Positions 21,807 through 64,000 of a stretch of DNA of 64,000 nucleotides are shown piece by piece (positions within the stretch are counted from its first letter, which is position 1; the number at the start of each line of letters is the position of its first letter). Position numbers and translations under genes: made by a program. The stretch is from Sinohyriopsis cumingii (lineage: Eukaryota > Mollusca > Bivalvia > Unionida > Unionidae): positions 67,245,982-67,309,981 of the forward strand of contig CM068831.1 of the NCBI GenBank assembly GCA_028554795.2, in the 5' to 3' direction. The notes beneath the pieces were generated by a model. It was not told the DNA's origin, did not search any database, and saw only the letters and a program-made list of their open reading frames with translations.

Positions 21807-24800
21807 TATTCTTTATTTCTTTTATGCTTAATTGTATTTTTTCAGCAGTAAGATTAAAGAACTTGAAAATAAAGTTATTTTTATTTTGAAATGCGAAATG
21901 GTTACTTATTGATTCTTCTCAAGTAATTGTTCAGGACGCTGTATGCTGCATTTCAGAGGAAGAAACGTTAATACTTCAAGTATTTATATCACACGCTGAC
22001 TGAAGGTGTCATCTTTCTATGTCAAGTTCAAATGGTTAAAACAGAGTTCTCTTCCATATAGTGTGCACATGTTTCTTTTACGCTATAAATTTAAGTTTTG
22101 TATAATGCCTGTTGAGGATGTAAGTGTTGAAAAGTTTAAATAGTCAATATTAAAACTGACTAATATTCTGAACGATCCTGCTTTACTGGTTTAATGACCA
22201 TCTCTTCCATCTATGGAGTGTAACTTGTATTTATCTCAACATACATGATCATAAATGTATCCGAAAATTGCAGCTCATTAAATTATATATATTGCTTTTC
22301 TTAGTGTTATTCACTTACACAATTATCTATTAATGCATTCATTACTTCAAATACAAATACATTATCAATTACAAGTTTACATTTAAAACATTCAGTTAAT
22401 ATGATTTAGACAGATACGCATGGCTACGTTCATTTTCCGTCTTTGATTCAATTTTGAATATCTCTTTTTCCTTTCTGTCGGTATTAATTTCATCAAGACT
22501 AACACTTAATGCATGTCTTTCTATCCATTTCTGTCTCGAGAGTACCTGTATCTAGTGTACACCTTTGTTCCAAATCATTTAAATGCTTCCTCGTTTGTTT
22601 AATTATGTTCTCTGTTTATTTAAAAACCACAATGCACCACACAGATATTAAGAGGACACTTCCCGATCTTCATAATTGTTTTGCATATGCCGCCTGCAAT
22701 GTGTTGTAGAATTCTTTGAACGAAATATATTATGTCGTTATGATTTTTATCAGTCCAATCTAACACGAATAGACAGAGTTCATGTTACTTTCATAGATCT
22801 TATCATCAACTCGTCTACCTCCAAGTTTCTCTATATTTTCGTATCCTTTATATCCAGCCCGAAAACTGTGCTGTTGTTACCTTTTTGATATTGTTTATCC
22901 AGACCAGTAATTTATATGTTGAAATCATTCATCTTTGTATATCTCTTGATTGCTCAAGTTCAAATTAAAAGTGTCAGAATTATCCTGATATTTTTTAATT
23001 CTTTTTTTACATTTATTATTTCGTGGCCGAAAACATATATCTCTGTTTATCCTCGATTCGTTGGGTTGTATTTATTATGCAAGGTGAAGAGAATCGTCTG
23101 CTCTTAGTCTTGTCGATTGTATGACCTGAATAGTATTCGTTAAAGTAATGAATTTCTATTTTGACACGTCTTCAGCTTCTAAAATTGTTCTTCTCTTCTA
23201 AATCAATTTCGACAGTTCTGCGTTGTAAGTAAGGTCGTCAAGTAGTGAGGAAAACGACGATCTTATTTTGTTTTTATTTCGCATATAGAAAAGTGGTTCT
23301 GTTCTACGATATAAGACATGGAGGCGGTTTTGGTTTAACACAGTATAAAGGATGGTAGACCAGCATTGTTTTTGAGGGGTGTGGGTAGGATGTGGCTTGG
23401 GTGGGGTATTTATCACAGAGTACGGAAGTCGTTTCGTGCTTTTTTATTTGTATGCAGTTGCAATGAAAGTGACCACAATTTTTTTTACGGAGCTAGGACT
23501 CATAATTATCGTATAGTTATAGTAGTAACGAAAGTGGTTATATCCTTATATAAGTGCAATAGTGATGTCTTGATGTTGTTCTTGACGTTGTTTGTTTATT
23601 TTTCACATACTAGTACGATAAATTAGGTGTGCCAGTCCTTACCATTTCAATATATCTAAAGGCCACGTTCTCTTATATTTTCCTCTACTTTTGCCAAGTT
23701 TTTCTCCAGCATGCGGTAAAGTGATTAAAAGCAGTGCTGCTTTCAGACCACACTACTATTTTAAAACAAAAACCTGTCGAAAATAAATAACTCTGGTGCG
23801 TTTTTATTTTGATTATTAAAATGGTTGATATTTTAAATCAAATGACTCATTTGGGTAAGGTTCACTATTAAACAAGTATAAAAATAACCGGTCTGTGTTT
23901 TCATTTCGTACGATATGGTGTCAATTATGATTCTGATAATTACTGTTGCTCCATGTTTATTTCAATCACGGTGACCTATGCTACCTCGCAAAAAATTGCT
24001 TCAAAATAGGTTTTAAAATCTAGATGGAGGAATAACCTAAAAGTGTGTACAATCGTTTCCTCCAGAATAAACTGTAATTCAATCCTATGTAAACCTATAT
24101 ACTATAATGATGCCAGCAGTGACGAAACTAGTTCTATTTGCCTCATCCTTATTACAGTGATTTACGTTTGATAATTATACATCTTTCAAAATGAATATCT
24201 TCCCGATGTAACTTATTTGACTTTCTTACATGATATTGCCATGACAATAACATCTGAAACGAGAACTCCACATGAAATAAATGTTGACCAACATTTTATT
24301 GTCAATAACGAAACACGAACGTGCCGAGGTGGCCTTAGTGTTTACTCTTATTTTGATACACTCACCACATCCAGAAAAAATTAAATGGTACGTCCCTTGC
24401 ACTTGTGATCTTCTTCACTAAATGAGGGATCACAACCAACGAGGCTCAGAAAATTTTACATTTTCTGCATATGCAGATAATAAAGTCTGAATAACAACAA
24501 AATAATTTTTGATATGATGTGTACAAAAGATGACATAGTAAATATAATCCATAATTCATAAAAAATGGTCTTTTGCATAAATGAATGAATACATAAATGA
24601 AAAAATGACTAAAATAACTGTGCACATAAATCATCGGGGACAGGCAAACAGAGAGACAGAAAACTCGACGGCAAGAGAAGATAATCTTATTTGGAATGCA
24701 TTATACACATATTGATCTAGGTAAATTTAAAGTTGGTAATTTTCATTTTTGGGTAATTCAAGTAATTTGTACATGCTTGGTTTCTGCCAATAATAAGGAC

Positions 24801-32170: not shown

Positions 32171-35100
32171 GGGAGAACCTGACCGCCACTCACTATTTTG
32201 ATGTGTGGCATGTTGCCATAGATGTGTTCATAGCACATTGTTTACTACACCTACTGATAATGGAAGAACCCTATTACTTTTACAGGGAAGAGACAAACAA
32301 AGAGCCCTACATCAAATCAGACAGAAGAATATGTCTTACTATGTTTAATTCCATGTGTAAAAAAATAAAAATTAGTTCATTGCCAGGGAACAATAATTTT
32401 AGGATCTGAGTAACCGAATTTACAGCATTTCAAAAAACGTCAATGGGTGTTTCCAACACTGATTTTAAAAAATTGTATAAGTACTTGAAATTCTTTTAAC
32501 TTATCAATAACATATCTGTGACAGATAAATATTTTTCTATCGGAGGAGAGCGAGAATACTGGGTTGAATACAGCTGTTACGTAAATGATGTAGTAGAGTT
32601 TGTGATTGACATATTTGATTCGGAGCAATGTCTCTTCCTCCTTGTTTGATTCAGAGCAATGTCTCTATTCTACGTTGATAAGATTTACGTATATTCAAAA
32701 TGTAAATATTTTAGGTATTTTTTCTGCAAAATAACCTACACAATATCTGGGGAAAATGCACACTAACAAAACATAATTATATGACTTTAAGAAACAGAGA
32801 AAGCAAGCTAAACCAATTTAGTAAATTTCAACAAATAATGTATTTCTCTAGAATACACAGGGAATTTAATGTTGTGAATTAAAATCCAAATAATTTTAAC
32901 CTTTCTATCATAAGTCCAATAGTATAGAGTGCTTTGAATGAATTCCAGGTTTTTAATGTGCTTAAGGATCAATGGTGTTTAATGATCTGATATGTCAGCA
33001 GTCTTGATGTATCACAATGATATAAACTAGAAAATCTTTGAATGAATTCACAGTAATCCAATATAATGGTTTAGCCTAAAATGTCAGTGAGCACTTAGCA
33101 ATTCCAATGAATAATATAATTAAATAATTCCTTTCAAATTATATCTCATACAAATAACAATAATCGTACAAGACTGAAGCTAAAATAGCAAAGACCAATT
33201 TGTTTACTTCAGAACCCTTTATAAAAGTATAAAACGCAATAAGATGTCAAGGATGATGATTATTTTCAATGGAAATTTCCATCAAATTCGTAAATATATT
33301 CATGTCTATTCGATTAAGCTTAAACAACTAACGAGACCAAATAAAATTTCCAACGAGAAAATCAGAGTACTGAACTCAAATCTAACTAAACATTTTGTTT
33401 TACAAATGAATATTATATAAAGGTAAAATCTACAATACTGGACATGTGCTATTTATATAATGTGTTGCATACAAATGACAGTAGCAATATACAGTCATGG
33501 ACAAAAATTAAATACACAGTATAGATATACATAATATGAACCCATATCTTACTTGCTAATCACAGTGTACGTGTAAACCCCTAATTTCACGTGCTCTTTG
33601 TTTCTCGGGCATTAGTGTATCGATTAAACCATAACAAGTATGATCACTGCCTTTTGTTTCTCGGGTATTAGTGTATCGATTAAACCATGACAAGTGTGAT
33701 CACTATGAGTAGACTCATACAAAGGAAAAGGACCGTCCAGATTGTTAAATATAGTTAGCGACGAAACGTTCCTTTTTCAATCGTTCACTCAAGTAGTCAA
33801 GTGTTTAGTTTTTACCGGTTTTCCATTTATTCTTTATTTCCTTCATGCCTTACTTATTTCTTCAGCATAATGATCAAATAACTTGAATCTAAGTTGTTTT
33901 TATTTTAAAATGCGAAATCTTTACTTATTGATTTTCCTGCAGTAATTGCTACTGAGGCTATATGCTTCATTCAACAGAAACAATCTTTGGTAATGCTCCT
34001 ATTATCACATGCTGATTCAAGACCTTCTCTTTTGTTTTACTCTCAAATGAATAAAACAGAGTTCTCTTACATAGTTTCTTCATTTGTTTCTTTTAACGCT
34101 GTAAATTTAAGGCAATGATCTCTGCCTAATGTCATTTTCGAGTGGCAGTGTTGTATGATTTCGACGGTCCAATTGATAAAATCAAAGCCAAAATTATTTA
34201 AATTGTCAATTCTCAAATTGACAAATATTGTGAACGATCTTTGCTTTATTTTTTTAATGACGATTCTCCTTCATCTATACGGTATAAGATGTATTCAGCA
34301 CATCATACAGGAGCATAAATAGATCCATAAAATGCAGCTAATTAATTTATATATTTCTTTGTTTAGTGTTATTCAGCTACAAAATTATCATTTAACGCAT
34401 GTTTCAGTTGAAATACATTATCTCGTCTACAAATTGGAAATGTACATTTAATTAAATCAGTTGATATAATTTAGCTGGTATACTAGTGGCAAAGAATGCA
34501 ATACAAAATTCGTAGAGCTATTTCAAAATAGTGTTATTTTCATTTTGCATAACATTCTTGTTTGATTTTGACAACTAAGTTTTCAAATTCACCCGTTTTT
34601 ATTTATAATGTAATACTTTTTCCGTCTTTTATTCTATTTTGAATATCTCTTTTTCCTTTCTGTTGCCTTTAATTGCATTAAAGCTAGCACTTAATGCATA
34701 CGTCTGTTAACCACTTGTGTCTTGAGTGAACCTGTATCTACAATAAACCTTCCTTACAAATAATTTAAATGTTTCCGAAAACACTGGCGAATTTTGGGTT
34801 TAAAAATGTTGGGTCCTAAAAATGATTTTTCTAAATCTGCATTTTCTAGATATTCCAGATTATTTGGTATCATTGTAGAGCTACATGTGTCTACCTTTCT
34901 ATAATACCATCCACTATAGTGTATCATTCTACTGTTGTTTATTTCGTCAATACTATCATGCACCACGCTGATTTCAAGACACAACATCCCAATCATTTGC
35001 ACACGGCTTTGACTGCATAGTTTTTGTTTTGTACTATTCTTTGAATCTAACATCTTATATCGTTCGGATTTCATCAATCCAGTCTAAAATGAATGGACAG

Positions 35101-38039
35101 TTTGCATGTCAATTTCTTAGATCGTAGCATGAATTCATTCACTTCTATTTCTTTAACTGCTGCCTGGAAATTGTCCTGTTGTTTGTGTTTGTTACGGTGT
35201 TGTTTGTAAAATGCCACTAACGCAAATGCTGAAATAATTCATATTTTTTCCATAACTTGATTCTTTTGTTCAAGTTGAGATTAAAAGGGTCAGAATTTTC
35301 TGATACTTTGGAATTCTTTTTTTTAAAAAATATTTCGTCGACAAGAACATATATATCTGTTAATCTTCGATTCCAAGGGTTATATATCAACGAAGGTAAA
35401 AAGAATCTTCTGAATTTATCTTGTCTATCCAGTGACTTGAAAAGTAGTCGATAAAGTTCTAAATTTCTATCTAGACACATCAACAGCTTCTAAAATTGTT
35501 CTGCTCTGGTGGATCTCTTTCTAAAGCCATGGAATTGTGGCGGCTTCTCTTGTCATTCTATTAAATAATGAATATTAGTAATTCATTGTCCACTTGTACC
35601 CTTCATCTATTGATGTCTTTTAAATCGTTTACTCTAAACTAGTAGTAAGTAAAGTAATCAAGTAGTAAATTCAAGGGCATGGTTTTTTGGGGTGTGTTTG
35701 TTATTGCAGTTGAAAGTGAGGTAATCATATTGTGAGGTAAAGGACGATCTGATTTGTTTCTTTATTTTACCCTAAGAAATACGCAATGTGGTTCTTTTGT
35801 ACGGTAAATTAAATTGTGGTGGCTTTGCTTTGTTTATGATACAGTAGTGAGGAAGGTAGTCAGCTATTATTTGTGGGGATTTGCTGGGTACGATGTGGAT
35901 GGATAGGGGTATTTTTTTAATATAAAAATCAAGTGACTCATTTGGGTAATGTGCAGTAGAATTAAACAAATTAAACTAAAATAACAGGACTGTGTTTTCA
36001 CGGTATCATTTATGATTCTAATAATTAAGTTGATCCATGTCTATTTCTAGCACGGTGACCATCGTAGCTCCTTTAGAATTATAAAATTTATGCCACTCGA
36101 ACAATTGCTTCCAAATAAGTTTTAAAATCTATATAGCAGAAATAAAATAATCATTTGCACACTCGTTTCCTCCAGAATCAGCTGTAATTTAATCCTATGT
36201 AAATTCATATGCTACACTTATGCCTACACTGAAGAAACTATTTCTGTCAGCAACATCATTGTCACTTTGACCTACGTTTCATTATAAAACATCTTTCAAC
36301 ATGTAACTTATCTGATTACCTTACATAAAATTTCCATGATAACAGGACCTGTAACGAGAACTCTACATGAAATACATGTAGACCAACGTTATATTCCCGA
36401 TAACGCCACACGCACACGACCTGAAGTGGCATTAGTGTTTAGTATTATTTCGACACTCACCCCATCAAGAAAAATTAAAAGGTACGCCCCATGCACTTGT
36501 GATATTCTCCACTGAGCGAGGAAGTCAAAATCAACGAGGTTCCCAAACGTTCACAATTTCTGCATATGCTGATGATAAAATCTGAATAACAGAGCGAAAC
36601 ATATTTTTTTATTTGGCATCTGCAAAAGAACACATAGCCAATACAATACATGATTCATACACAATGCACTGTTGCATAAATGCCTGAATATACGAATAAA
36701 TAATGGCTATACAAATGTGCGCATAAATCCTCGGAGATGGACAGACAGAAATAGAACTCTACAGCGAGAGACGATAATCTAAGTTGGAATGCATTATCAG
36801 CATATTTATCTAGGTGTTTTAGAGTTCTGAAATCTTCATTTTTGTGTAATTGAAGTAATTGGTACATACCTGGTTTCTGCCAGTAATAAGGATCAAAATA
36901 AATTAAAATGAAATATGTATTTTAGTCTCTGGTTACAAAACAATAAAAGGCAAGATATATGGACTGAATTAGGATATTACCAGATCTTCAAGACCGTGAA
37001 GTTAATAAAATAGTTCTCACACTGAAACCCCAATTTTTACAATTCTTTCTTTTAAAATCTTTAAGCATTAACTGCTATATTTTTTAACAATTTAATTATT
37101 TGTGTTTAGCAATCTGAATCGTTCTTAAAGATACGCACATATATAGTTGAATAAAGAGTATGTAGTCCAAACTATCCATTTTCAAGCATAACGTTGGCAG
37201 GATGTATAACATTTAGTATCTACATGCACTTTTTTTATGTACTTGTCCTACACTATATGCTTTCGAAACCTATACACCCATAAGACAATATTGGAGATTC
37301 AAATTAATCAAATAAATGAACCATTATATTCACCAAACATTCTAGAATGTTAGTATTATTCAGAAGTAATGTTTTCTATGTACCCGTCATATACTATCTG
37401 TTTTCAAAAAACCCTTATATCACAGTCATAAGACAATATTGGAGATGTGAATTTTCAAATAAATGAACTATATATTTACCAGACATTCTAGAATTTTAGC
37501 ATTATTCAGAAGTAATGTGGCGCACACCTCTGCTCTTGCAAAGTCTGATTGTATGCCCTGAAGTCGGAGAGGCATTGATCATTATTCAAAATGTAATAAC
37601 AAAACCAGTAGCTTCATGTTTGTAATTATTTCCTCTGATAGTACTGTTCACGTGTCACACATACAAAAACCACTCACATCGTATCGATCAAATCAGTTGC
37701 TACAACTCTGTAAACTAAATCAACTTAAAAATCATGTAATGATCTCATTTCCTTTCCAATTTGTACAGTAACTTTGTATTGGGGACTTTATTTATCTCTA
37801 ATCACCTACCGTTGCTTAATTGTCAAACAACCACAGAGATACTGTTCGTGTCAGCAGTGTATTCCATATCAGAGTGAGCCATATATCCAATTATACTATT
37901 CTTGCTGTACAAGCAATAGTTAATTTTAGGTAACCAAAGAAACATGCAGAAAGTCTTTTATGCACTCAGCTATGGGGGTCCTATGACAAATTTCGGTTGC
38001 CCAGATAAATTCATCGTGATAATTCGGTAATCCTATCAT

Positions 38040-41829: not shown

Positions 41830-42594
41830 ATGACAATGGTTCGCTTGTTCTTCGCTTTCCTGGCGTTCTCTAAATTGCTTACAAGCGGACATCCTCAAAT
41901 TAATTGTGGAAACGTCACTTCATCTACATGCCAAAATGTCTGTTTTGGAAAACCAATTGACTGCCAGGTCATTTACCAAATGGGTTTTACAAAGACTGGA
42001 GGCTACATTATTTATCCCAAAGGACATCCTAATGGTATCTACGTTCGATGTGACATGCGTACAGCCGGTGGAAGATGGACTGTCATTCAGAGAAGAATCA
42101 GCGGAGATGTTGATTTCTTTCGTGAGTGGATTGATTATAAAGAGGGTTTTGGTGATCCAAATGGAAACATGTGGCTCGGAAATGACAATATACATGACCT
42201 CACGGCTCAGGCCGATTACCAGCTGCATATAAACTTGGCTGTTTCAAATACAAATACCAGCTTTGCCATGTATGATACTTTCTCGGTTGGAGACGAAAGT
42301 AGTGGATATCGTCTCATCGTAAAAGGCTACAGTGGAACAGCAGGCGACTCTTTCTCTTATCATTCTGATATGAAATTCACCACCAAGGATTGGGACAAGG
42401 ACAAAGACAATTCGTCAAATTGTGCCAGTAAATACAAAGGCGGTTGGTGGTACAATGCTTGCCATTATTCAAACTTAAATGGAATCTACGGATCCACCAA
42501 TTATGGAGAAGGAATAAATTGGCATGCATATGCCGGATATCACACATCCATGATAAATGCAGACATGAAAATAAGGAGAAAAGTTTCACAGTAA
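41830..42594 (+). CDS. Secreted fibrinogen-related domain (FReD) protein
   Basis: This is an intact single-exon gene of 254 residues from the conserved ATG (MTMVRLFF); an in-frame ATG at 41806 would add eight residues but is absent from copy 1. Residues about 1-22 form a hydrophobic signal peptide. The remainder is one fibrinogen C-terminal domain with CDMRTAGGRWTVIQRR, GFGDPNGNMWLGNDNIHDLT, a calcium-site region DWDKDKDNSSNCASKYKGGW, the CHYSNLNGIYG turn and a GINWHAYAGYHTSM tail. There is no collagen, Ig or coiled-coil region, unlike ficolins or snail FREPs, so oligomerisation would have to use the extra N-terminal cysteines. The family binds acetylated or carbohydrate ligands in innate defence; that role is inferred. 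A TATA box precedes it and AATAAA follows. Its nonsense twin is at 10583. Confidence 0.9.
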   Translation: MTMVRLFFAFLAFSKLLTSGHPQINCGNVTSSTCQNVCFGKPIDCQVIYQMGFTKTGGYIIYPKGHPNGIYVRCDMRTAGGRWTVIQRRISGDVDFFREWIDYKEGFGDPNGNMWLGNDNIHDLTAQADYQLHINLAVSNTNTSFAMYDTFSVGDESSGYRLIVKGYSGTAGDSFSYHSDMKFTTKDWDKDKDNSSNCASKYKGGWWYNACHYSNLNGIYGSTNYGEGINWHAYAGYHTSMINADMKIRRKVSQ

Positions 42595-52208: not shown

Positions 52209-53106
52209 ATTTTTCATTTCCTTTATGCTTGATTTTATTTTTTCAGCAGCAAGATTAAATAACTTGAAAATAAAGTAATTTTTATTTTGAAATGCGAAAT
52301 GGTTACTTATTGATTCTTCTCAAGTAATTGCTCATGACGCTGTATGCTGCATTTAAGAGGAAGAAACGTTAATACATCTAGTATTTATATCACACGCTGA
52401 CTTAAGATGTCATCTTTCTATGTCACGTCTTCCATATTGTGTGCATAGGTTTATTTTACGCAATAAATTTTAAGGCACTGAGTTTTGTACAATATCTGTT
52501 GAGGATGTAAGTATTGAAAGGTTTAAGTTGTCAATATTAAAACTGACTAATATTCTGAACGATCCTGCGTTACTGGTTTAATGACAATCTCTTCCATCTA
52601 TAGAGTGTAGCTTGTATTTATCTCAACATATATTAGCATAAATGTATCCGAAAATTGCAGCTAATTAAATTATATATATTGCTTTTCTCAACGTTATTCA
52701 CTTACACAATTATCTATTAATGCATTCATTACTTCAAATACATTATCAATTACAAGTTTACATTTAAAACATTCAGTTAATATGATTTAGACAGATACTC
52801 ATGGCTACGTTCATTTTCCGTCTTGGATTCAATTTTGAATATCTCTTTTTCCTTTCTATCGGTATTAATTTCATCAAGACTAACACTTAATGCATGTCTT
52901 TCTATCCATTTCTGTCTTGAGAGTACCTGTATCTATTGTACACCTTTGTTCCAAATCATTTAAATGTTTCCTCGTTTGTTTTATTATGTTGTCTGTTTAT
53001 TTAAAAACCACAATGCACAACATTGATATTAAGAGGACACTTCCCGATCTTCATAATTGTTTTGCATATGCCACCTGCAATGTGTTTTAGAATTCTTTGA
53101 ACGAAA
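52209..53106. repeat. Partial duplication unit up to the viral insertion
   Basis: Matches 21807-22725 and, more distantly, 2990-4065 and 34750-35045. The match stops at GAATTCTTTGAACGAAA (ending about 53106), where the virus-like element begins. Confidence 0.85.
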
Positions 53107-53356
53107 ATAAAGGCTCCTACAAGAAACTTTACGTAGAAAGGCCCCAATTTCAAAAATAAAGGCTGCCACGGGACGTTATTTTTGATAAAAACCTTGATGC
53201 GTGACATAGTGTGTCATAAAAATATACCCGTGCAGGCAAATTTTGTTTCGTTAATTAAGCCCCGTATTATGGTCTCAGCCTCTCTGCTGCTGTGCAATTG
53301 TTAAAATATTTGGTCAGTAATTTTTATCATTATTAAAGTAAATTATTTTGTATATC
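53107..53356. promoter_or_regulatory. Left terminal non-coding region of the element
   Basis: The element begins with an AATAAAGGCTCC motif (about 53106-53117), repeated as AATAAAGGCTGCC about 50 bp later. A TGACA/TGTCA inverted pair (53202-53206 and 53212-53216) follows, then AT-rich DNA up to the first gene. In Polintons this position holds the terminal inverted repeat and the first promoter; the other end is needed to prove it. Confidence 0.5.
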
Positions 53357-54593
53357 ATGAGCGTTGGAGAACCACATTCAGCCAGATTAGCACGAGAGCG
53401 ATTAGCAGCATTAAGAAAATTAATTCCTGTTAGAGAATCTGTCAAAAGAAAAATACGAGCATATGAAGATGAGAAACTCGGATTTAAGGATTTTTCAGCA
53501 GAGTTATTCGAGCCAGTAACTAAAACTATCGAGCGGGTTTTACTTGGAGATGTCGAAGATCCTGATGTGAAAAAAAAGAGGTATTCTTCCTGTATTAAAG
53601 AAAATTGAAGAACAAACTACTATACGTGTGCCTGCATCTGTAGTTGAACCTCAGGCTGATATTGAGGAGGATGAAGAAGAAGGAGCTGTTGGTGGGGTTT
53701 CCGGAGCTGAAAAATTTACCGATGATGCTATTAATGAAATAAAATCATTGAAAGTAGCTGATTTAGTTAAATTTACCAGCGATAATTTTGACATAGATAA
53801 ACGAAAATTTTTTATGAACGGTGAATATTATAAAAATATTTCTGCAGAAAAATGGGGAAGATGGATATTCTACGTGCATAAGGGTGTTAGCTCGGTCAAA
53901 TCTGATGATCTTGAATATAATCAGTTCATTACTTTGTTAAATTTGTATGAAACACAGAAAAAAAGACAATTATTGTTACCAAAACCGTTATCAGCTTCTT
54001 TTCCTGCACAGCCCAGAAAAAAATTGCCTCATGAAATATTTACCAAAGAAAGTTTAGATAAACTTGAAAATAGAGATGAACTGATTAATATCGCTATTAC
54101 TGGTTATAAAGATAGGGATAAATATCTAAGGGAAGATGCCGAAAAACTTGAACCTGGTGATTGGATTCCAGCGGTGTATTTTGCCAGCAAAAGAAAAAAA
54201 ATCAATATAAAAGATCCAGAATATACAAAATTTCTTAGTGAGTTATCCAAGGCAAAAAAATGTCAACAACAACCTCAGAAAAAACCTTTTGATTTATTAG
54301 GAGATATTTTTAAAGAACAACCTGAGGAGGATGAAGAAGAATTTTACTCACTATCACATTCACCTACCCCTGGCGCTACCGGTAGCGGTTATGGTACAAT
54401 TTGCCCTGACAGTGTTGTCAACGACGTGTCTCGATTAGAGGCTCTTATTGGGGGAAAACGAGCAGGAAATAACTCACGCGAAATAACCAACGAGGCTGCT
54501 GATATTTGTAAGCGATTATTTAGCGGTAAAATTATAAATATTCACGTTTACAGAAACCTCATTGATGAAATTATTGAAGGGTATAGCGATTAG
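53357..54593 (+). pseudogene. Element protein 1: unknown, with internally repeated domain
   Basis: The first element gene starts at ATG 53357 (MSVGEPHSARLARERL). The frame changes at an A8 run (53570-53577): one frame ends at 53608 and the next is open from upstream of 53628 to 54593. In the second part two segments resemble each other: KWGRWIFYVHKGVSSVKSDD followed by LEYNQFITLL, and DWIPAVYFASKRKKINIKDP followed by EYTKFLSEL. This suggests a duplicated small helical domain. An acidic linker (ADIEEDEEE), a basic proline-containing stretch and a C-terminal region of about 60 residues flank these. I do not recognise the family. Its place just inside the terminus, before the structural genes, fits a virion or DNA-packaging accessory role, which is conjecture. 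Confidence 0.7.
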
Positions 54594-54617
54594 TTGTTAG
54601 ATAAAGATATATAAGAT

Positions 54618-55046
54618 ATGATCGTGCACAAACATCATCGTAGACCCGCTCAGATTCGTGTTGTTAATTCCCGATTGCCCGTATTTAAACTTGTTCACAG
54701 CAACGGAATTACAAGCTTCGTTACAAGAATAGCACCTAAAGTCGGACCGATTGCTAAACAATTAGCGATGAAAGCGATCGGATTCGTTCGTGATAAAGCT
54801 ACTGCTGCTGTTGGTGATTTAGCTGGTAAGGCTTTTAGTGCCATTAAAGATAAAATCGCAAAATTAGTGCGTAAAAAGGCCAAATTACCTAGCACCGCTA
54901 TAATGCCTAGCGTTATTAGTAAAATTATTAATGGTGCTGCAAATCAGAAATTAACTGAGTTAACAAATAAATTAGTAAACCAAGAAATTACCCAACCGGT
55001 AAATACCAGCTTTATATCAGGCAGCGGTCTTCGTTTTAGAAGATAA
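54618..55046 (+). CDS. Element protein 2: small basic, virion-associated-like
   Basis: An intact 142-residue protein with its ATG 24 bp after the previous stop and its stop 13 bp before the capsid gene. It is strongly basic (HKHHRRPAQIRV at the N-terminus, VRKKAKLP in the middle) with an amphipathic central part (IAPKVGPIAKQLAMKAIGFV) and a C-terminus GSGLRFRR. The GxGLR ending recurs in the core-like protein at 56469. Position and composition resemble minor virion or membrane-active proteins encoded beside the capsid gene in adenovirus-like and Polinton genomes (protein VI or core type). This is an inference; no domain is certain. Confidence 0.6.
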   Translation: MIVHKHHRRPAQIRVVNSRLPVFKLVHSNGITSFVTRIAPKVGPIAKQLAMKAIGFVRDKATAAVGDLAGKAFSAIKDKIAKLVRKKAKLPSTAIMPSVISKIINGAANQKLTELTNKLVNQEITQPVNTSFISGSGLRFRR

Positions 55047-55059
55047 TAATTATAATAAA

Positions 55060-56454
55060 ATGTTTGCAAGAACATCAAACGAAGCGTTTGACATGGACGA
55101 ACCGGTAAGTAAAGACACGTCGTTGCGCGATTATCAATATTATTCGTATGACGCTGTAACGCCAAATAGCCAAAATCGTGTTGAAGTTCAGGTTCATGAC
55201 ACGACCAGATATTTTCTTCCATCCGAGGCGTTTATTGAAGTTATTGGTGAGATTTTAAAAGCGGATAACACTAATTATGGCGAGAATGATAAGATCGGAT
55301 TTGTAAATAATGGTATTATGGCGTTATTTAAGAGCGCCACATACATGGTTGATGGATGAGAAATTGAATCAATTACTAATGACGTTGATTTAGCTACGAC
55401 AATTATAGGCCTGGCGAGATATTCAGATGATTTTACTAGATCAGCTGGTCCTAGCATGATGTTTGCCAAAGATAATACTGATACAGCTGATCATGTGCAA
55501 TTTATTTCTGCTATACCAAGAAACGCAGCTAACAACGCTGATGCTACTAATGCAGCAGTACTTACAGATACTAACGCCAATTTTAACTTTGGTTTTGCCA
55601 CGCGAAGAGTAATGTTAAAAATACCAGCAGGAGGAGGTAGCATGAGATTTTCATGCGCGATTCCGTTATCGCATATATTTGGATTTTGCAGAAATTTCAG
55701 AAAAGTAATTTTCGGAGCAAAGCACACTTTAACTCTTATTCGAAACGGTAGTGATAATGCCATCTGGCGAGCTGATGCTGTTGCTGCTGGTAAAGTTCAT
55801 ATAACTAAATTTACCTTGTGGATGCCAGCGCTAGTTCCATCAGCAATTGAGGAAGAAAAATTATTATCTTTCATGGATCACGGTGGTAAATCAATAATGT
55901 CATGGCTAACAACAACTACTGACGCTACCACCGTTAATATTAATGGCGATTATACTTGGCGTATTGCAGCTCAACAAGGTGTTTCAGCACCTAGACATAT
56001 TTTTATTGCCTTTCAAAATAATAACAGATACGATCAAACTCACAGTCATATGATATTTGATCACGTTGGCGTTACTAATGTGTCGTTGAGAATAAACGGG
56101 CAACAACAACCATCTGAAGAAATATCGATAAATTTTGCAACTTATTCAACAGCTCGTGCATATCATCGATTGTTAAGTTATATGGGGCGAGATCAAAATA
56201 TTGATACGGGATTGCAAATATCGCAGTTAGATTTTAATACTCGTTATCCGATCTATTATTTTTCGCTAGAACATCTTGATCTGATAAAACAATCTGTCGT
56301 TGATATACATTTTAAGGCAAGAATTAATACAGGTGGAGCCTTCCACAAAGTAATCGCGGTGATACTTAGCGATAGAACAATGATTTTAGAAGGAATTAGC
56401 GGCAGAATGAGGGTTGTTGATGCGCCTGTAGAAAAAAATGTGAATTTAAATTGA
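55060..56454 (+). pseudogene. Major capsid protein-like, one in-frame TGA
   Basis: The reading frame has 464 codons, interrupted once by TGA at 55357-55359; the same frame continues to 56454 without further stops. Recognisable conserved segments are TRYFLPSEAFIEVIGEILKA, GFVNNGIMALFKSATYM, GLARYSDDF, LSHIFGFCRNFRKVIFGAKH and TLTLIRNGSDNAIWRADAVA, and a C-terminal VVDIHFKARINTGG then AVILSDRT. They match my general knowledge of Polinton-type capsid proteins, which fold as double jelly-rolls and trimerise into the icosahedral shell. The length fits. The gene lies between the small basic protein and the core protein, as expected for a late structural cluster. Alternative: a related minor capsid protein. 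Confidence 0.72.
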
Positions 56455-56468
56455 ATTTCATAAATATA

Positions 56469-56969
56469 ATGCCATACGATCACGTTAGTGTAACTCTGAC
56501 TCCGGGTCAGATAAAAAACTTCAATCAAAAAAAGCCAGCTCGGTGAAATTAACATTAAAAACTCACAAATTCACGGTGGGCCAAATAAATTAGCGTTAAC
56601 TAAAACTCAGCATAAGCGCTTTAACAAGGCCAAATCGGCAAATACTGGAGTTCACGTTAATCTTAGTCCGGGCGCTATCAAAGATATGGTTAAAGTTGGT
56701 GGATTTTTCCCATTACTAGGATTAATTCCTGGATTAGTTGCAAAAATTGCTGCTATTGCTGCTCCGTTAGCGGCGAAAGCTGCAGTGGCGGCTCCAATTA
56801 TAGCAGCAAAAGCGGCAAAAGCTGCTGCGTTAGGTGCGGCTGGAGTCGCAGGTAGTAAATTAGCAGAAAAAGTATCGGGAGGACGATACGGTAAAAAAAA
56901 GGTCACGGACTGAGATTGCCAGGAACTTACTACGGCCGCGGTCTAAGATTGCCAGGAACATTCCCGTAG
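56469..56969 (+). pseudogene. Virion core (pX-like) protein with two frame breaks
   Basis: ATG 56469 lies 14 bp after the capsid stop. The frame changes at A7 (56527-56533) and at A8 (56893-56900). The N-terminal part has two similar motifs, VSVTLTPGQIKNF (first frame) and VHVNLSPGAIKDM (second frame). After these come a hydrophobic GGFFPLLGLIPGLV and a long Ala-rich segment (about 56740-56870), probably helical and membrane-active. The last frame ends with a repeated GxGLRLPGT motif (56903-56969). Short proteins with LTxxQ-type repeats, a GGFLP-like hydrophobic core and GxGL motifs are usual beside the protease in Polintons/adintoviruses. The GxGL sites may be protease cleavage sites. The stop is 2 bp before the protease ATG. 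Confidence 0.68.
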
Positions 56970-56971
56970 CA

Positions 56972-57394
56972 ATGTCGAATTTAGACTTATTTAACGAAGT
57001 AAAAAACAAGAAAATTAAATTTTTTAGAGGTATATTTATGCGAGATCAACTACCAGCCAAACCAAACTTCACCGAGACAGGAATTATAAACCTCGATAAC
57101 AGTATTGGCCCAGGGACGCATTGGGTTGCTTACGGAATTAATCCACGTGAAATTGTTCATTTTGACTCGTACGGATTAGCTCCACTGATTGAATTTATCA
57201 ATTACGCAAAACAGTTAAAAACTCCGATTTGGTATTCGACGTTGCCAACACAAACTTTAACTGATCCACCAATCTGCGGCAGTGAGGTAATTAATGTTCT
57301 TGATGCGATATCAAAATCGTCGCTGCCGTATCACAAAATCGTGCTTAAATATGCGTCCGATAACTTAAATCAGTCACAAATTAATAATGGTTGA
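56972..57394 (+). CDS. Adenain-like cysteine protease (maturation protease)
   Basis: An intact 140-residue protein. The catalytic residues are visible: His in GPGTHWVAYG (about residue 50), Asp in VHFDSYGL (about 66) and Cys in DPPICGSEVI (about 101), with a Gln in LPTQTL a few residues before the Cys for the oxyanion hole. The N-terminal FRGIFMRDQLP is typical of the Polinton/adintovirus branch. Adenain (peptidase family C5, Ulp1-like fold) cleaves capsid and core precursors during virion maturation. The Cys motif is CGSEV where most relatives have CGH or CG followed by aromatic residues, and the protein is shorter than adenovirus adenain. The following gene overlaps its end by 8 bp (ATG 57387), indicating translational packing. 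Confidence 0.88.
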   Translation: MSNLDLFNEVKNKKIKFFRGIFMRDQLPAKPNFTETGIINLDNSIGPGTHWVAYGINPREIVHFDSYGLAPLIEFINYAKQLKTPIWYSTLPTQTLTDPPICGSEVINVLDAISKSSLPYHKIVLKYASDNLNQSQINNG

Positions 57395-58541
57395 CATTTA
57401 TGGAAGGTCCTTAATAAGAGAGAAAATATCTGATGCTGATTTATCAAAATACGCAACAAAAGATGACCTTAATAATTTATTATCAATATCAGGAATAGAT
57501 CCTGATGAGATTGTTATTTTTTCAACATCAACATGGGAAATTAAAAACTAGCAATGTCAAATTAGCTGACGTGATTCAGCGGCACGAACATCTCGCGCAT
57601 GTGAATGAATTTACTGGCTTGCAAGGAACTGTTGCAGAAGCTAACAAAAAAATTACAAAATTTCAGGGTGATTTTACTAGTCATGTAACTGAATTTATTG
57701 GCTTGCAAGAAACTATTAGAAAAGCCGACGAAGAAATTAAAAAATTTCATGCAGATGATTTTGGAATAACCCAGAGAGAAATTACCAAAATTAACGAGGT
57801 TAACAAAGAATCAGATAAAAATATCAAAAATATTAATGAATCAATCGGGCGGATTAATGAATCTATCGGGAGGATTAATCAGGCAACAAACGAAGCAAAA
57901 ACAAATATCGTAAATACTGCTACGAAAATTAATAATGGTATCGCCGAGGTAGATAAAAAATATCAGAAATTAAAACAAAAATAATTGATGATATCTCAAA
58001 AAATCAGAAGACATTTAATGAAATTGATACCAACGCCGCAGCTATTAAACGAATTGATAATGCTATCGCCGAGGTAAATAAAAAAATTGAACAAAATCTT
58101 GAGCAAGGTCTTAAAGATGTTCTTCAAAATTTATCATTAGCGATTGGAAAAAGATTTGATAAAATTCAGGCTGAAGTGGCAGCTATCGAAATTAAAATTC
58201 CACCTTCCATGAAATCGCATGTTAAAAATTTAACTTTTACGGCAGCATCAGGTTTAAGGACCTGGACACCAGAAAATAATAGTTTTTCTTACACGGCAAT
58301 GATTACTGGCGCGTATCAACTACATTTTTTCTCCAAAATAAGATTTAAGATATCAACTGACAAATATAAATGGCGACGTGAGAGCGACAGATATTTAAGT
58401 TTTTTAAGTATTTTGCTGAACAAAGACGTTGAAGAAACATTTACACTAGAACCACCAGATCGAACGACAACAACGCCAACTGAATATTTCTGGTGTTTAG
58501 AACTTATCACCGAAATATCATCATCATTTAATCAATTGTAA
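57387..58541 (+). pseudogene. Heptad-repeat fibre/spike-like protein, two frame changes
   Basis: The start is ATG 57387 (MVDIYGRSLIREKI), overlapping the protease. The first frame stops at 57549-57551. The next is open to 57984, and the third from about 57978 to 58541; the second change sits in an A5 run (57977-57981). The middle part is a coiled coil with exact-period repeats: an 84-nt (28-residue) unit around EFTGLQGTVAEANKKITKF and EFIGLQETIRKADEEIKKF (57607 and 57691), and a 21-nt heptad unit INESIGR (57832 and 57853). The C-terminal third (LTFTAASGLRTWTPENNSFS, then YQLHFFSK) is beta-rich. A trimeric coiled-coil stalk with a globular tip suggests an attachment fibre or spike; this is inferred from architecture only. 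Confidence 0.65.
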
Positions 58542-58550
58542 AATTAATAA

Positions 58551-59065
58551 TGACCGCATCCGAGTACAGATATAATCAAGTTTGATCGTGGCAGGACTCG
58601 CTAAAACTCACCATGGGCGTGTGCTTAGCAAAGATAAAAAAATATCAACGACGATTAGTCATCATTGATGTTGTTGTTTATTCAGTTAGTGCCGCTGTTG
58701 CTGGCGCCGGAATAATATTATCCGCGATAACGATGATGGCACCGATCGCTGTCACTATCGCAGTTTGAGCAACAACAACCGTCGCTGGTGTTCTTAATAT
58801 CATCGCAAAAAAAATATCATCATGCACGAGCGAAAAATTAACTTCATATATTAATAAACTTAACGCGGTAACAATCACGTATACAAAATTATCTTCGTTG
58901 CTGTCAGAAAGTCTCAACGTTGGGGTTTTATCTGATAACGAATTTACCGAGATGGTAAAAATTTACCATGTTGAAGTTATTGATAATAATAATGTCAGAG
59001 CTGGCACAGATCGTAACAAACACGAATCTACGCAGAACAACAATGATATCAGCAAGCTCAACTAG
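58551..59065 (+). pseudogene. Small two-helix membrane protein remnant
   Basis: The region starts with a possible ATG (58551) that meets TGA after 11 codons. A second open stretch includes LAKTHHGRVLSKDKKISTTI in one frame, and an overlapping frame starts at ATG 58613. The latter encodes two hydrophobic segments (VIIDVVVYSVSAAVAGAGII at about 58655, and MMAPIAVTIAV with ATTTVAGVLNII at about 58735-58800), cut by TGA at 58766-58768. After them a soluble tail (LSSLLSESLNVGVLSDNEF) follows. Double-helix membrane proteins with this layout are seen in Polinton-type genomes, but the name and function are unknown to me. The end is uncertain, because this frame runs 74 bp into the next gene. Confidence 0.5.
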
Positions 59066-60387
59066 GCCAGAATTTAGAATTAATTTTCCTATTCCGATCT
59101 TTGTTGACGAAATAGCGTTATCACAATTGCGTGTTTATCACAGCTGGCCCAATATTAGATCAAAATCATTTGGCAGCTTATTGTCAAATAATTCGTTTGT
59201 TATCGCTAATAAAAACCGCTCCGATGCTACTCCAGACTGGATTGTCATTGGATTACGAACAGGTAGTTATCAGATTGAGCAAATTAATGAAGAATTGCTG
59301 CATAAAATTACGAATATAACTGGCGATAAAGAACCTGGAGTAAAAATATCTGCACACGAACCAACATTAACCTCAATTATCGAGGTAAAATCACCATATA
59401 TCGTTGATATTTATCAATCCTCAATTAGAACCGTGCTAGGTTGGCCTGAAATTGCACCAGTTTATCCACCAGCGCCACCAGAACCAAAAAAAATCTGATT
59501 TTACCACCGATATACAAGGTTATCATAAGCTACAAGATTATGAACCTATACTGCGCCGCATGGTTTATCCAAAAAATACTGAGTTTAAATTTTTATCAAG
59601 AAACAATATAAGTTGGACTTTCACCTTCTCACCCTACGCCCCTGCAACATTTACTTTAGATCGTATTGATGAATTATCAAAAAAATATAATAATAAACAC
59701 AAGGAATTATTACAACAAATGCGATGTTATTTTCAGGAGTGTATCATTAATGTATCAAGCTCATGCAGAGAAGAAATTATCAGACAAGCCGAAATGATAA
59801 ATAAGATTACAAACGACATGAATTTTATGCACGAGAAAATTATTCAGATAATAATTAACGATAAAACTGACAATAAAAATAGATTTATGGCCGAATACGG
59901 ACTAACCGATGTGACGTTGGTAAATTTTAGATTTCCCAGCTACAATGTGCCTGAATTAAAAAAATCCGTCACTGATACCGTTGATGAGCTATTTTATCAA
60001 TTACACGCCGCATGGAAGGAGAAATTACCACCAACATCTGTACTTAAGCACAATAATAATCCAGAAGGCGGCGGTAGGCATATTTCACCAAATATCGTAA
60101 ATATAACTGACGTTATCGCGGTAAATCTTCACGCGGATATCGTTGATGGTAGTTATAGCGCAGATGCGTCAATATCAAGTCAGGTCCAACAAGGATCTGT
60201 TATTTATTCGTTTTCACCAACAACACCGCCAGGATCTTTAATCGTAAAAGAACCAATTAATCCTGTTTATGTCAGGTGCCATAATCAGTTATTGCCAAGA
60301 ATTAATTTCAAATTAACTAATCAGCGAGGGGTTTTACTTGATATTCGCGGAGAAACGTTAAATATTAATTTGTTGGTGAAGTATTAA
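58992..60387 (+). pseudogene. Penton/minor capsid-like protein, one frame change
   Basis: ATG 58992 (MSELAQIVTNTN) opens a frame to 59498. At an A8 run (59486-59493) the reading changes, and the second frame continues to 60387. N-terminal features such as DEIALSQLRVYHSWPNIRSK, WIVIGLRTGSYQIEQINEEL and VLGWPEI resemble the N-terminal part of Polinton/adintovirus penton proteins. The C-terminus (PRINFKLTNQRGVLLDIRGE, then TLNINLLVKY) resembles their final jelly-roll strand. About 460 residues in total. Between these lies a helical charged region (about 59660-59880) and a PEGGG linker (about 60060). Pentons occupy the icosahedral vertices and anchor fibres. The gene ends the rightward structural cluster and faces the minus-strand genes. 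Confidence 0.65.
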
Positions 60388-60389
60388 GT

Positions 60390-60425
60390 TTAAGGATCTT
60401 AAGATCCTGAGATCCTTAAGGATCT
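60390..60425. terminator. Nested CCTTAAGG/GATC palindromes between convergent genes
   Basis: Two perfect 16-bp palindromes, AGGATCTTAAGATCCT (60393-60408) and AGATCCTTAAGGATCT (60410-60425), overlap a 10-bp-stem hairpin (60390-60399 with 60410-60419). They start 2 bp after the penton stop. The place, between converging transcription units, suggests a transcription-end or insulating role; this is inference. Confidence 0.5.
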
Positions 60426-60514
60426 TTCCACTATGGAAAAAATGACAAAAAAATAAGATAAAAATCAGCAAAAGTTAATGTTTTTTTTTAATTTCCAGTT
60501 TTCAAATTTTAAAT

Positions 60515-60861
60515 TTAAATATCCTTAAGGATATCAGTTTCACTTACTAATTTTTTTAGTTGCCTCGCTCGGGTATTAATAATGTTTCTTGATTCGTATT
60601 CGTCCGATAATTCTGATCTGATTTTCTCAATAATGTTAGATAAATGAACAAAATCTTTAATTTGTTCCTCGCTGACAGATGCTAGTGATTGATACATCGC
60701 AGTTTGAAGTTTCTTGATAAATTTATATTCAGATGGCAATACGTATCTGCAATCTAGCTTATTCTGATCTTATCAGAATTTAACTCTGGTGATAATTTTA
60801 TATTTTTATTTTCCAATTTTTCGATAGCGTCAATGATACAATTGATATTATTCTTGTTCAT
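60515..60861 (-). pseudogene. Small unknown element protein, one frame change
   Basis: The minus-strand start is ATG at 60861 (MNKNNINCIIDAIEKLENKN). The first frame reaches a stop at about 60763, and an overlapping frame is open from there to 60515 (LPSEYKFIKKLQTAMYQSLA, then SDEYESRNIINTRARQLKKL). About 115 residues in all, predicted helical and charged. I do not recognise it. It is the last gene of the leftward transcribed group and ends on the palindrome cluster. Confidence 0.5.
60519..60534. repeat. Third 16-bp palindrome with CCTTAAGG core
   Basis: ATATCCTTAAGGATAT is perfectly self-complementary and shares its core with the palindrome at 60410. It overlaps the 3' end of the minus-strand gene. 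The 60426-60514 stretch between is A-rich then T-rich and non-coding. Confidence 0.6.
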
Positions 60862-60920
60862 GTTATAGTAATTATTTTATCTCTAAAAAAATATTATTGT
60901 AAAATTACTGCTGAAATTTA

Positions 60921-61427
60921 TTAATCTAAAATTAGCGGGATGTAGGAAAACTTAATCCACTCGTCAAATTTATAAGAAAATGCCGAGTTAATTATTTTAT
61001 CTGCAGCTCGCCTCACTGATGCGCGATGAATATTAAAGTATCTACCAGCAGATGTCATTGATTGAAATATCATTTCCTAGTTAGTTTCTAAATTTATTGA
61101 TTTAACCGCTTTGGCATGTTTTGAACCTCTACCAGCGTTACCTCGTGATGAATTTTCACTTGGAGTGACCACCTGAAGATTAGATAATTTATTATTGAGT
61201 TTATCCCCGTCGACGTGGTCAATTACAAAACCATCTTGGATTAATCCCTTATAGCATTCGTATACAAATCTATGACAGGAGTAATTTTTTTCTCCAGCAT
61301 TAAATCTGAGATAACCAGCATTATCAATAGTATCGACTGGGTTTTTCATTCTGCAATTTCTAACAACGCCGTCGCATGATGCTTCGTAGTTATCAATGAT
61401 TGGATGAGTCTTGAATATCTGGCTCAT
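60921..61427 (-). pseudogene. HNH endonuclease with NUMOD-type regions, in-frame TAG
   Basis: Start ATG 61427 (MSQIFKTHPIIDNYEASCDG); the nearby TTG is not used. The N-terminal part (YEASCDGVVRNCRMKNP) is NUMOD4-like. The HNH core reads FVIDHVDGDKLNNKLSNLQV followed by VTPSENSSRG, with the expected His and Asn residues. After KAVKSINLETN comes TAG (61077-61079). The same frame continues to TAA at 60921-60923 with MIFQSMTSAGRYFNIHRASV, a NUMOD1-like DNA-binding helix region. HNH/NUMOD proteins are homing endonucleases of phages, NCLDVs and some Polinton-like viruses that cleave DNA and spread themselves. Here it may be a hitchhiking gene or serve the element. The TAG would remove only the DNA-binding tail. 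Confidence 0.8.
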
Positions 61428-61437
61428 ATACAAAATA

Positions 61438-61737
61438 TCATTTGTCTAAATTATTGTTTGTTTGAAACCTATTAAGATAATCCTCCTCACATTTGATTAT
61501 CCGATCATCAACGTTAATATTTTTGTCATAGTGTCGCTTTAACTCTCGATAGCATTTACCGCCACAATTTAAGCACAATCTTGTTTTTCCTCGCAATCCA
61601 ACGCTACATTTTATACATCTCTGCGGTCTGTAATTGTTTTTACGAACACACTGTATATGCTCGCCACAATATTCACGTTTGCATGATTTATCGCAGCAAT
61701 TTAACGAGCCAACAACGTTCCATTTGCATTTATTCAT
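61438..61737 (-). CDS. Cys-rich zinc-binding-like small protein
   Basis: An intact 99-residue protein, 10 bp upstream of the HNH gene on the same strand. It has many Cys and some His in paired spacing: CCDKSCKREYCGEHIQC, then CIKCS, then CLNCGGKCY. This suggests two or three small zinc knuckles. The rest is basic and hydrophilic, with no signal peptide. The C-terminus (EEDYLNRFQTNNN) is helical. The family is not recognised; nucleic-acid binding is a reasonable inference. Its start lies 31 bp from the divergent plus-strand gene, so the two probably share a promoter region. Confidence 0.6.
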   Translation of the reverse strand: MNKCKWNVVGSLNCCDKSCKREYCGEHIQCVRKNNYRPQRCIKCSVGLRGKTRLCLNCGGKCYRELKRHYDKNINVDDRIIKCEEDYLNRFQTNNNLDK

Positions 61738-61768
61738 TTATAATTTAGATATTTGTCTAAAATATAAT
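61738..61768. promoter_or_regulatory. Divergent promoter region (31 bp)
   Basis: This AT-rich gap, containing AAAATATAATATG on the plus side and AATTATAAAT on the minus side, is the only space between the leftward HNH group and the rightward replication genes. Transcription of both must begin in or near it. Confidence 0.45.
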
Positions 61769-62188
61769 ATGAAATTATTTGACATTGATGAGATTGATTA
61801 CGTTATTCATGAAACTGATCAAGCGAAGAAAGAATTTTACGATGATGGAGCAATTCACACTTGGTCGACCTGGAAAACTAACTTAATCGATAACACAATG
61901 ACAGATAAACGAGCCAGTGAGATAATTAATTATATTCGAAATAATCACGGCGAAGAGCAATTTATATTTGGGATAAAATTTATTGCACAAATAAACGATG
62001 ATGTATGGATAATTCGCGATAAACGAGATCCTATAGTTAGAGAAAGAAAAAATGTGATTTTATCCGCGCGAAGTCGACCAGGATTATTAACAGGTATAGA
62101 CAAACCGTATTATGCCAGATCTTACCCTGTTAGTGCTGTTGTTTATGGAATTTATCGGCTAAATGATAAACCAGATGTTAAAAATTAA
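61769..62188 (+). CDS. Unknown element protein upstream of the polymerase
   Basis: An intact 139-residue protein from ATG 61769 (MKLFDIDEIDYVIHETDQAK); longer readings rely on a non-ATG start inside the divergent gene. It contains GAIHTWSTWKTNLIDNT, GEEQFIFGIKFIAQINDDVW and PYYARSYPVSAVVYG. No signal peptide or membrane helix is seen, and the composition is mixed and charged. I do not recognise it. Its stop is 5 bp before the polymerase ATG, so the two probably form one transcription unit and may work together in replication. Confidence 0.6.
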   Translation: MKLFDIDEIDYVIHETDQAKKEFYDDGAIHTWSTWKTNLIDNTMTDKRASEIINYIRNNHGEEQFIFGIKFIAQINDDVWIIRDKRDPIVRERKNVILSARSRPGLLTGIDKPYYARSYPVSAVVYGIYRLNDKPDVKN

Positions 62189-62193
62189 CTTTA

Positions 62194-64000
62194 ATGAAAG
62201 TTTCTTCGGTAATTAATTGTGTAGATGAGCGAGTAATGGAACACTTGAAAAATGCAAAGCGCGGATCAGGCTTAACCGAATTAAGATTAACAAAAATAAA
62301 CAATTGGGCCGAATCGGTTGTTAATGGCGCATCAATAACTGACGTGGCTGCGTTATCGTGTAAATTAAAATTTCCCATGGTAGTAAAAACTATCACAGGT
62401 GAGATTTTATACGAATCAGCGTATAAATCACGAGGTGCTCCTATAGAAATTATCGATCATAATTCCCATGCTTGGTCAAGCGCGGTAACGATATTTCCTC
62501 GAGATCGTGTTGTTAAATTCTATACCGCAGAATTATCTGCCGCAGATATTTCTGCGGAAGATTCTCTGTTGGATAATTCATTAAACATGTTTAAATTTAT
62601 TCACGATATAAGTAAATCCGATCCTGTTTCAGTTTGGTTATTTAGCAGCGAAGATAAATATGATCAGTTTGTGCGACCTAATGGTGATATTTATCGAATA
62701 AAATCATTACACGATTCAATGACAGAATTAATTGATAAATACTCGACAAGTTCTGAATTATTAACTAATTGTTTTACTGTTTCGTCTGTTGCTGCTCACG
62801 CCGCTAGGGAGCAAAACTCATGGAGACCAACGCGAAATGAATTTCTCAAGAATATTCAGATGAGTTGCGTTGAATACGGTCATGGCGGATTATGGAACAC
62901 CAAATACGATTACACAAATATGATATCTGTTGATATGGCAGCGTGTTATCCTGGAAGTTTTTTAGGATTAGGAGATTGCGGTAAATATTTTGCCAAATTC
63001 GGTCATCCAACAAACGAAATGACTCGTGTTGCGATTAACGGACCATTACCAGATTTTCCCTTAACGGGATTTGCTCGTGTTGTATCATTTAAATTTACTG
63101 AAAATCTGCATAAAATCTGCTACATTTGGTTTGGGAAGCATTTCTCGTGTCAACGCTGGGTTAACATAGCGCTGCTGCAATAAATGTTAGATTCAGCCAT
63201 GTTAACTTCGCTAACGGTTAGTGAGGCGATTATTTTGTATAAAAAACAAACAACAGTTTGGCTGCCAACACGCGACGAAAACGCAAAAGATTTAGGTAGA
63301 AAAATTATAGGTAAATTCACTCAAGGTGGCGCTTATGATCATAAACGACATCACTCTAGATTAATTATGGATGACGCTGAGTTAGATTTTATAATTGCCG
63401 ATACAACGTCGAAAGGTACATTCTGTAATCGCGAAAATATTTACGTCAATGATATGAAAATTGGTACCGTAGTTAACTATGTTGAGGGAGAATCACCGCA
63501 GTATACGCATTTAAGATCTTCAATGCTAGCTTATGTAAGTATAAATTTACTTTCAATGATAAATAAATTTCCTAAATACGCGGTTACAGTAGCAACAGAT
63601 TCATTTTATATCGACGAAAAACACGCATCATTGTTAGAAAATTTAACCGGAGATGGTAGTTGGGGTACTTGGAGAATAAAGAATGAAAATATTTTAAACT
63701 ATACGTTATCTGATGATGTTGCTGATGCTGATGAATATCATACAAATACAATGCCAGATATCTCTGTAGCGCCATCTGTTTATGATCCTATTTCTCGACA
63801 TAAATTCGTATACATAAACGGACCAGGTGGCAGCGGAAAAACAACACGAACTATCGAATTATTAAAAAACTCTGATTTAATCGTATTAACGCCGACACAC
63901 AGATTAGCAAAAGAAATGAAACAGCGCGGCGTTGCTTCTTGCACCTATCACAGCTTTTTCAAATATAGCGGAGGCGCATGGAATTGTTCGAGGATGGGAG
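62194..64000 (+). pseudogene. Family-B-like DNA polymerase fused to SF1 helicase, in-frame TAA, cut by window end
   Basis: One reading frame runs from ATG 62194 to the window end with a single TAA (63181-63183), immediately followed by ATG. Polymerase motif A is YDYTNMISVDMAACYPG (Asp 247). Motif C is VTVATDSFYI (Asp at about 469), in which the usual first Asp of DTD is Ala. A KIIGKFTQGG segment lies where motif B is expected. No 3'-5' exonuclease motif is evident in the N-terminal 240 residues. From about residue 535 the same frame has a Walker A GPGGSGKTT (63820-63846), IVLTPTHRLAKEM (motif Ia) and TYHSFF (motif Ib), which identify an SF1 helicase of Pif1/RecD type. The protein would copy and unwind the element DNA. 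Similar fused proteins occur, as far as I recall, as uncharacterised entries in invertebrates and some fungi. Confidence 0.78.

Follow-up and report, generated by a model that had tools for sequence, protein, structure and literature searches.

A probable endogenous polinton-like virus with a Tlr1-like replicase, degraded in place, in the genome of a unionid mussel

The window analysed here, a stretch of 64,000 nucleotides from a 2.90-Gb assembly (G000; contig C8, positions 67245982-67309981), is a tandemly duplicated fibrinogen-gene region that carries an integrated element on its forward strand from position 53104 to the end of the window. The 10,897 bp inside the window are the left part of a 14,287-bp element that ends at window coordinate 67390 (C8:67313371), and they encode a double jelly-roll (DJR) major capsid protein (MCP), several other candidate virion genes and a polymerase-helicase; an rve integrase, a Pox_A32 ATPase and a phospholipase A2 (PLA2) domain protein (PF08398) follow beyond position 64000. 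We consider it probable that the element is a degraded endogenous polinton-like virus (PLV) with a Tlr1-like replicase of the pPolB-S1H type, resident in a unionid nuclear genome, and the copy in the window is most likely a broken fossil of such a family.

Part of this reading rests on the pPolB-S1H-like replicase gene (61769..64000, running on to 64710, forward strand), which lies in three pieces in the window copy (up to 62188, 62194-63183 and 63184-64710). For comparison, twelve further copies were fetched around the replicase, several of these stretches stopping short of the later genes. In six of the twelve the replicase is one natural frame of 988-998 aa in which polymerase-like motifs, with the palm taken from a motif reading, are followed by a C-terminal PIF1-like superfamily 1 (SF1) helicase. 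The helicase half is recognised by the AAA_19 profile (E 1.1e-12); it is also similar to two kinds of PDB entry, PIF1 helicases (E 6e-5) and an ATP-dependent DNA helicase (5fhd, E 1e-6), and to Dda-like helicases in PHROGs. Ahead of it, inspection by eye picked out putative vOTU motifs (NC and HNxHAW), then palm motifs A (SVDMxACYPGS), B (GKFTQG) and C (RVATDS), and finally a Walker A motif (GGSGKTT). The first Asp of the DTD in motif C is substituted, as reported for Tlr1-like proteins. By the same reading about 144 residues separate HNxHAW from motif A, leaving little room for an exonuclease, and searches of the replicase against Pfam and PHROGs returned no exonuclease profile outside the helicase. 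Among 7997 scored database candidates we found nine relatives, three of which (from metagenomes) finish in an HNH-like stretch as judged by eye. According to the literature, which is drawn on here and below in excerpts, PLVs and transpovirons share the polymerase-then-helicase order and carry a C-terminal GIY-YIG or HNH domain (PMC11071308).

Upstream of the replicase lies a series of genes on the forward strand, several of them interrupted. The capsid gene (55060..56454), called capsid-like in an earlier first-pass annotation of this DNA, proved to encode a DJR MCP: its two same-frame pieces are split by an in-frame stop, the second matches PF21738 (E 9.9e-23), and other copies hold one frame of ~465 aa; searches with the capsid in PHROGs and PDB gave no useful match. 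Together with the Pox_A32 match of the ATPase, this supplies the DJR capsid and packaging ATPase expected of a pPolB-S1H PLV. The first gene of the element is broken into two open reading frames (ORFs; 53357-53608 and 53628-54593, together 53357..54593), both of which match a single 456-aa frame in copy L069, and it is followed by a basic ORF of 142 aa (54618..55046) that is core-like by look only and has no Pfam match. A hydrophobic ORF (56686..56913), minor-capsid-like by look only, lies upstream of an open frame for a candidate adenain-like cysteine protease (56972..57394). Next comes a fibre-like gene (57505..58541) that is broken here into a coiled-coil part (57505-57984) and a head part (58176-58541). 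Each part aligns with single frames of ~513-570 aa from other copies, and Pfam gave no convincing domain match for the gene. The coiled coil itself varies, forming several repeated frames in L074 and L079 and part of one ~513-570-aa frame in L073 and L075-L078. The penton candidate (58968..60387) consists of two overlapping frames here and of one 518-533-aa frame in L073 and L075-L078.

Two genes on the opposite strand separate this series from the replicase, namely an HNH endonuclease gene (61080..61433; PF13392, E 5.9e-14) and a Cys-rich zinc-ribbon-like ORF (61438..61737; weak DZR_2 match, E 0.015). The separate HNH gene is the most divergent among copies (mean dN 0.29). Past the window lies the integrase, whose rve match (PF00665) falls short of the cut-off in the window copy (E 2.8e-6) and passes it in another (E 5.3e-8). 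Its acidic residues, picked by eye in the window copy, give a D-62-D-34-E arrangement, and the PLA2 and ATPase genes carry YCGPGT, HD and Walker motifs. Among the twelve further copies, replicase pieces and the HNH gene were each present in all 12; the zinc-ribbon ORF was present in 10, the integrase in 8, PLA2 in 6 and the ATPase in 1. In the window copy the broken genes are the first gene, those for the capsid and the fibre-like protein, the penton candidate and the replicase; the protease, integrase, PLA2 and ATPase genes are open.

The first-pass annotation had made its proposal of an integrated element depend on a second, inverted terminus, and this was found outside the window. A DNA search with 53100-53340 led to an inverted counterpart at C8:67313122-67313334 (98%), and the right end was placed by alignment at C8:67313371; the left terminal inverted repeat (TIR; 53104..53316) is identical to the inverted right copy at 208 of 213 positions, with three of the five differences (2.3%) clustered. 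Scanning 52900-64000 for repeats turned up no long inverted one, the right end being outside the window. The typical terminus reads 5'-AGCAGCAG, with small variants among copies; the TIRs of this family begin with AG. The window copy's right TIR repeats its terminal motif in inverted form at the inner edge (L009:3444-3462 and 3658-3676; 19 nt, 95%; fold z -4.8), a pair that is not seen in L061 and is replaced by a different, weaker one in L069. The reading as an integrated element of the polinton supergroup was borne out.

Target-site duplications were assessed on 15 fetched pairs of ends, of which 13 were usable, two on C1 with matching flanks lacking one terminus. The duplication is exactly 7 bp and flush with the termini in 10 of the 13; two pairs (C82 and C16) can be read as 6 bp flush or, shifted by 1 bp, as 7 bp, and C3 has no direct repeat. 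When shifts of up to 2 bp were allowed, five of the ten 7-bp pairs also yielded repeats of 8-9 bp. The 6-bp duplication characteristic of Polintons and adintoviruses was not the rule in the usable pairs; in the excerpted literature, intact vertebrate Mavericks have 6-bp duplications (PMC8097293), and among PLVs with rve elements 6 bp is typical, with one imperfect 7-bp instance (PMC12220804). The two C1 copies (44.77-44.79 and 45.13-45.15 Mb) stand in opposite orientation with matching flanks and the same TIR tip missing in each, and look as though an inverted segmental duplication had carried along a single insertion.

The left junction of the window copy can be compared with uninterrupted host paralogues inside the window. 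Host bases 53071-53106 agree with 22690-22725 at 34 of 36 positions; downstream of 53106 the host sequence gives way sharply to the gene-dense block, as originally described, and the paralogue continues from 22690 through host DNA without an insert. The predicted natural empty site was accordingly confirmed (22690..22860, forward strand) and joined by two more distant ones, also without insert and on the forward strand (4046..4177, 76% over 135 positions; 35025..35136, 75% over 113 positions), giving three in the window. In paralogue numbering the native target of the window copy was 22785-22791, and the right flank opens with these bases. At the occupied left junction a host stretch of 59 nt (~22726-22784) is absent, as are the outer 37-40 nt of the left TIR. 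Position 53106 is a secondary deletion junction and not a native terminus of the element, since the right end of the window copy and the termini of other copies begin 37 nt further out, and the host stretch was lost from the occupied copy, since the paralogues at 4046-4177 and 35025-35136 retain it. The sharpness of the junction in the window could instead mark 53106 as the true left end, the extra host bases having been gained by the paralogue; given those same termini and the two farther paralogues that also hold the extra stretch, we regard this as very improbable, and the claim that the left end had been mapped there to within a base or two had to be abandoned. Divergence between the flanking paralogues is K 0.057 over 1255 bp and 0.064 over 1131 bp, and the lower TIR divergence (5/213) supports the proposal that the insertion is younger than the local duplication, provided that no gene conversion has occurred.

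The element belongs to a large family in this genome. Scoring was limited to the best candidates, so the copy counts are lower bounds, and the top-scoring lists may favour well-kept copies: we counted at least 121 MCP places and at least 125 helicase places, 24 of them paired, corresponding to at least ~222 loci if the unpaired ones are distinct. Stop-free frames reached 440 aa or more at 97 of the 121 scored MCP places and 980 aa or more at 42 of the 125 scored replicase places. Ten same-strand capsid matches at C10:116.0-117.0 Mb are spaced ~87-91 kb apart (with two gaps near 166 kb and one of 107 kb), a pattern suggestive of tandem amplification of a large unit containing one element.

Ratios of mean nonsynonymous (dN) to mean synonymous (dS) distance between copies were 0.15 for the MCP (15 pairs), 0.22 for the penton candidate (6 pairs, leaving out L077, whose frame end differs), 0.11 for the protease (10 pairs), 0.06 (15 pairs) and 0.09 (3 pairs) for the replicase, 0.10 for the integrase (21 pairs, dN<dS in 20), 0.08 for PLA2 (6 of 10 pairs usable) and 0.21 for HNH (27 of 28 pairs usable). 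Rows were picked for open frames, a choice that excludes stops and not missense changes, with the open piece of the broken window capsid as the exception. These ratios show capsid as well as replication genes evolving under purifying selection, and the absent or decaying capsid genes of a capsid-less transposon are not what we found (97 of 121 MCP frames open, ratio 0.15). Synonymous distances within groups average ~0.17-0.46, and TIR differences within single copies are 0.8-2.2% in six group-2 copies and 2.3% in the window copy; the excess of the former over the latter suggests that several lineages, separated long ago, have inserted recently. In trees of the replicase (12 own rows) and the MCP (6 own rows, group 1 only), copies from the mussel genome form one or more supported clades, Sinanodonta sequences fall outside them, and a Hydra MCP sits in a distant group on long branches.

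We set the element beside known systems by their published descriptions, with taxon names following an excerpt of PMC12451622. Tlr1 and the pPolB-S1H PLVs (Aquintoviricetes; Tetraselmis viridis virus S1) share with it a single protein in which an SF1 helicase comes after the polymerase motifs, the replaced first Asp of motif C, the ATPase, the DJR capsid and, in Tlr1, the rve integrase (PMC11071308, PMC4028283, PMC4642659). The mussel element differs in its animal host, its PLA2 gene, its separate opposite-strand HNH gene, its 7-bp duplications and its adenain-like protease candidate, a protease being stated, in the excerpts, to be absent in Tlr. Transpovirons have the same Tlr1-like replicase but, as excerpted, lack the structural module and are tied to giant viruses (PMC11071308). 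The endogenised PLV of Oxyrrhis marina (OmPLV) also fuses polymerase and SF1 helicase, but has its helicase N-terminal, retains the exonuclease and uses a tyrosine recombinase instead of rve (PMC12721341). Polintons/Mavericks and adintoviruses (Eupolintoviridae, Polintoviricetes) share AG-starting TIRs, rve, the A32-type ATPase, the DJR capsid and animal hosts, but differ in replicase domain order and in duplicating 6 bp rather than 7 bp (PMC8097293).

This last group is where the first-pass annotation had filed the element. A canonical member would carry a TP-vOTU-EXO-PALM polymerase plus a separate helicase-like gene; its rve integrase, ATPase, capsid and AG-starting TIRs are all present here, and Mavericks are recorded as a repeat class across molluscs in an excerpt of PMC10294476. 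Instead of an exonuclease polymerase without a fused helicase, however, six of twelve copies hold polymerase motifs and helicase in one frame, and with the short HNxHAW-to-motif A interval and the 7-bp duplications this leaves the filing unsupported and, in our judgement, quite improbable. It is also unlikely, in our estimate, that the same element spreads purely as an intragenomic transposon whose capsid genes serve no virion today. The many copies, their own-genome clades and the absence of viral contigs from our IMG/VR pattern scans would agree with such spread; against it stand the ratios for capsid, penton candidate and protease, and synonymous distances between copies far above the TIR differences within them.

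Several observations weigh against a PLV of the pPolB-S1H type. Chief among them, the polymerase half matched no profile in Pfam, PDB or PHROGs, and its palm and vOTU motifs were assigned by eye against consensus motifs. The protease gene announced by the first-pass annotation stands as an open adenain-like candidate that reaches E 0.0046 against the African swine fever virus protease S273R (profile A5), but its Peptidase_C5 match (E 0.096) is under the cut-off; the penton-like gene of the same annotation, a candidate for the single-jelly-roll penton expected of such a PLV, has no homologue detected in Pfam or PDB (best PDB E 0.28, unrelated). Both trees were built from rows that include no labelled PLV or Polinton references, and the clustering of own copies is as expected from spread within one genome. 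Scans of IMG/VR with a few short peptide patterns each gave 0 matches for MCP patterns, and 13 and 14 matches from the replicase and MCP alignments, none of them confirmed, and thus no free-virus contig.

If the element is such a PLV, its linear genome would be copied from the ends by protein-primed synthesis, with the fused helicase opening the strands; the ATPase would package it into the DJR capsid, the cysteine protease would mature the capsid, PLA2 may aid membrane passage, and the integrase would join the AG...CT ends to target cuts staggered by 7 bp. In our reconstruction, insertion of the window copy followed the local duplication; since then it has lost its outer left end together with neighbouring host DNA and has acquired stops and frame changes. 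More tentatively, and at less than even confidence, we propose that a still-active, capsid-selected pPolB-S1H PLV lineage infects bilaterians (freshwater mussels) and repeatedly enters their germline, with a 7-bp-duplicating integrase and, for attachment, a fibre-like protein in which the length of the coiled coil varies between copies.

The host is an animal, most likely a unionid mussel, judging from the tandem fibrinogen-related genes at 10565-11239 and 41830-42588 (PF00147, fibrinogen-C). The best 17 of 103 matches listed for the fibrinogen-C gene at 41830-42588, of which 10565-11239 is a paralogue, (E <= 1e-50) are in Potamilus streckersoni and Sinanodonta woodiana, at no more than 76% identity, and both genera belong to the Unionidae. 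Sinanodonta is described as a freshwater bivalve in an excerpt of PMC12048480. A bacterial origin was rejected, the contig measuring 127.6 Mb with fibrinogen genes adjoining the element, and a replicase scan of prokaryotic genomes gave 36 pattern matches, none confirmed as relatives. The window also contains a TA repeat of 246 bp (978-1223) and a reverse-transcriptase ORF on the reverse strand (44220-45137).

The excerpts consulted report pPolB-S1H replicases for transpovirons and for PLVs whose hosts are single-celled (PMC11071308, PMC12721341), and an animal survey reports only cnidarian capsid genes outside the main Maverick-Polinton group (PMC10120064). A cnidarian relative may have been noticed before, since Hydra magnipapillata is among the species abbreviations of a Tlr1 figure (PMC3671162, in excerpt); titles and abstract openings, covering part of the literature, included none describing such elements in molluscs among those listed. 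If the reading as a pPolB-S1H PLV is true, the presence in a bilaterian of so large a family, with its genes open and under selection, would bring this replicase type into animals, would add a 7-bp variant of rve integration, and would provide an animal model in which to ask if polinton-like elements form virions.

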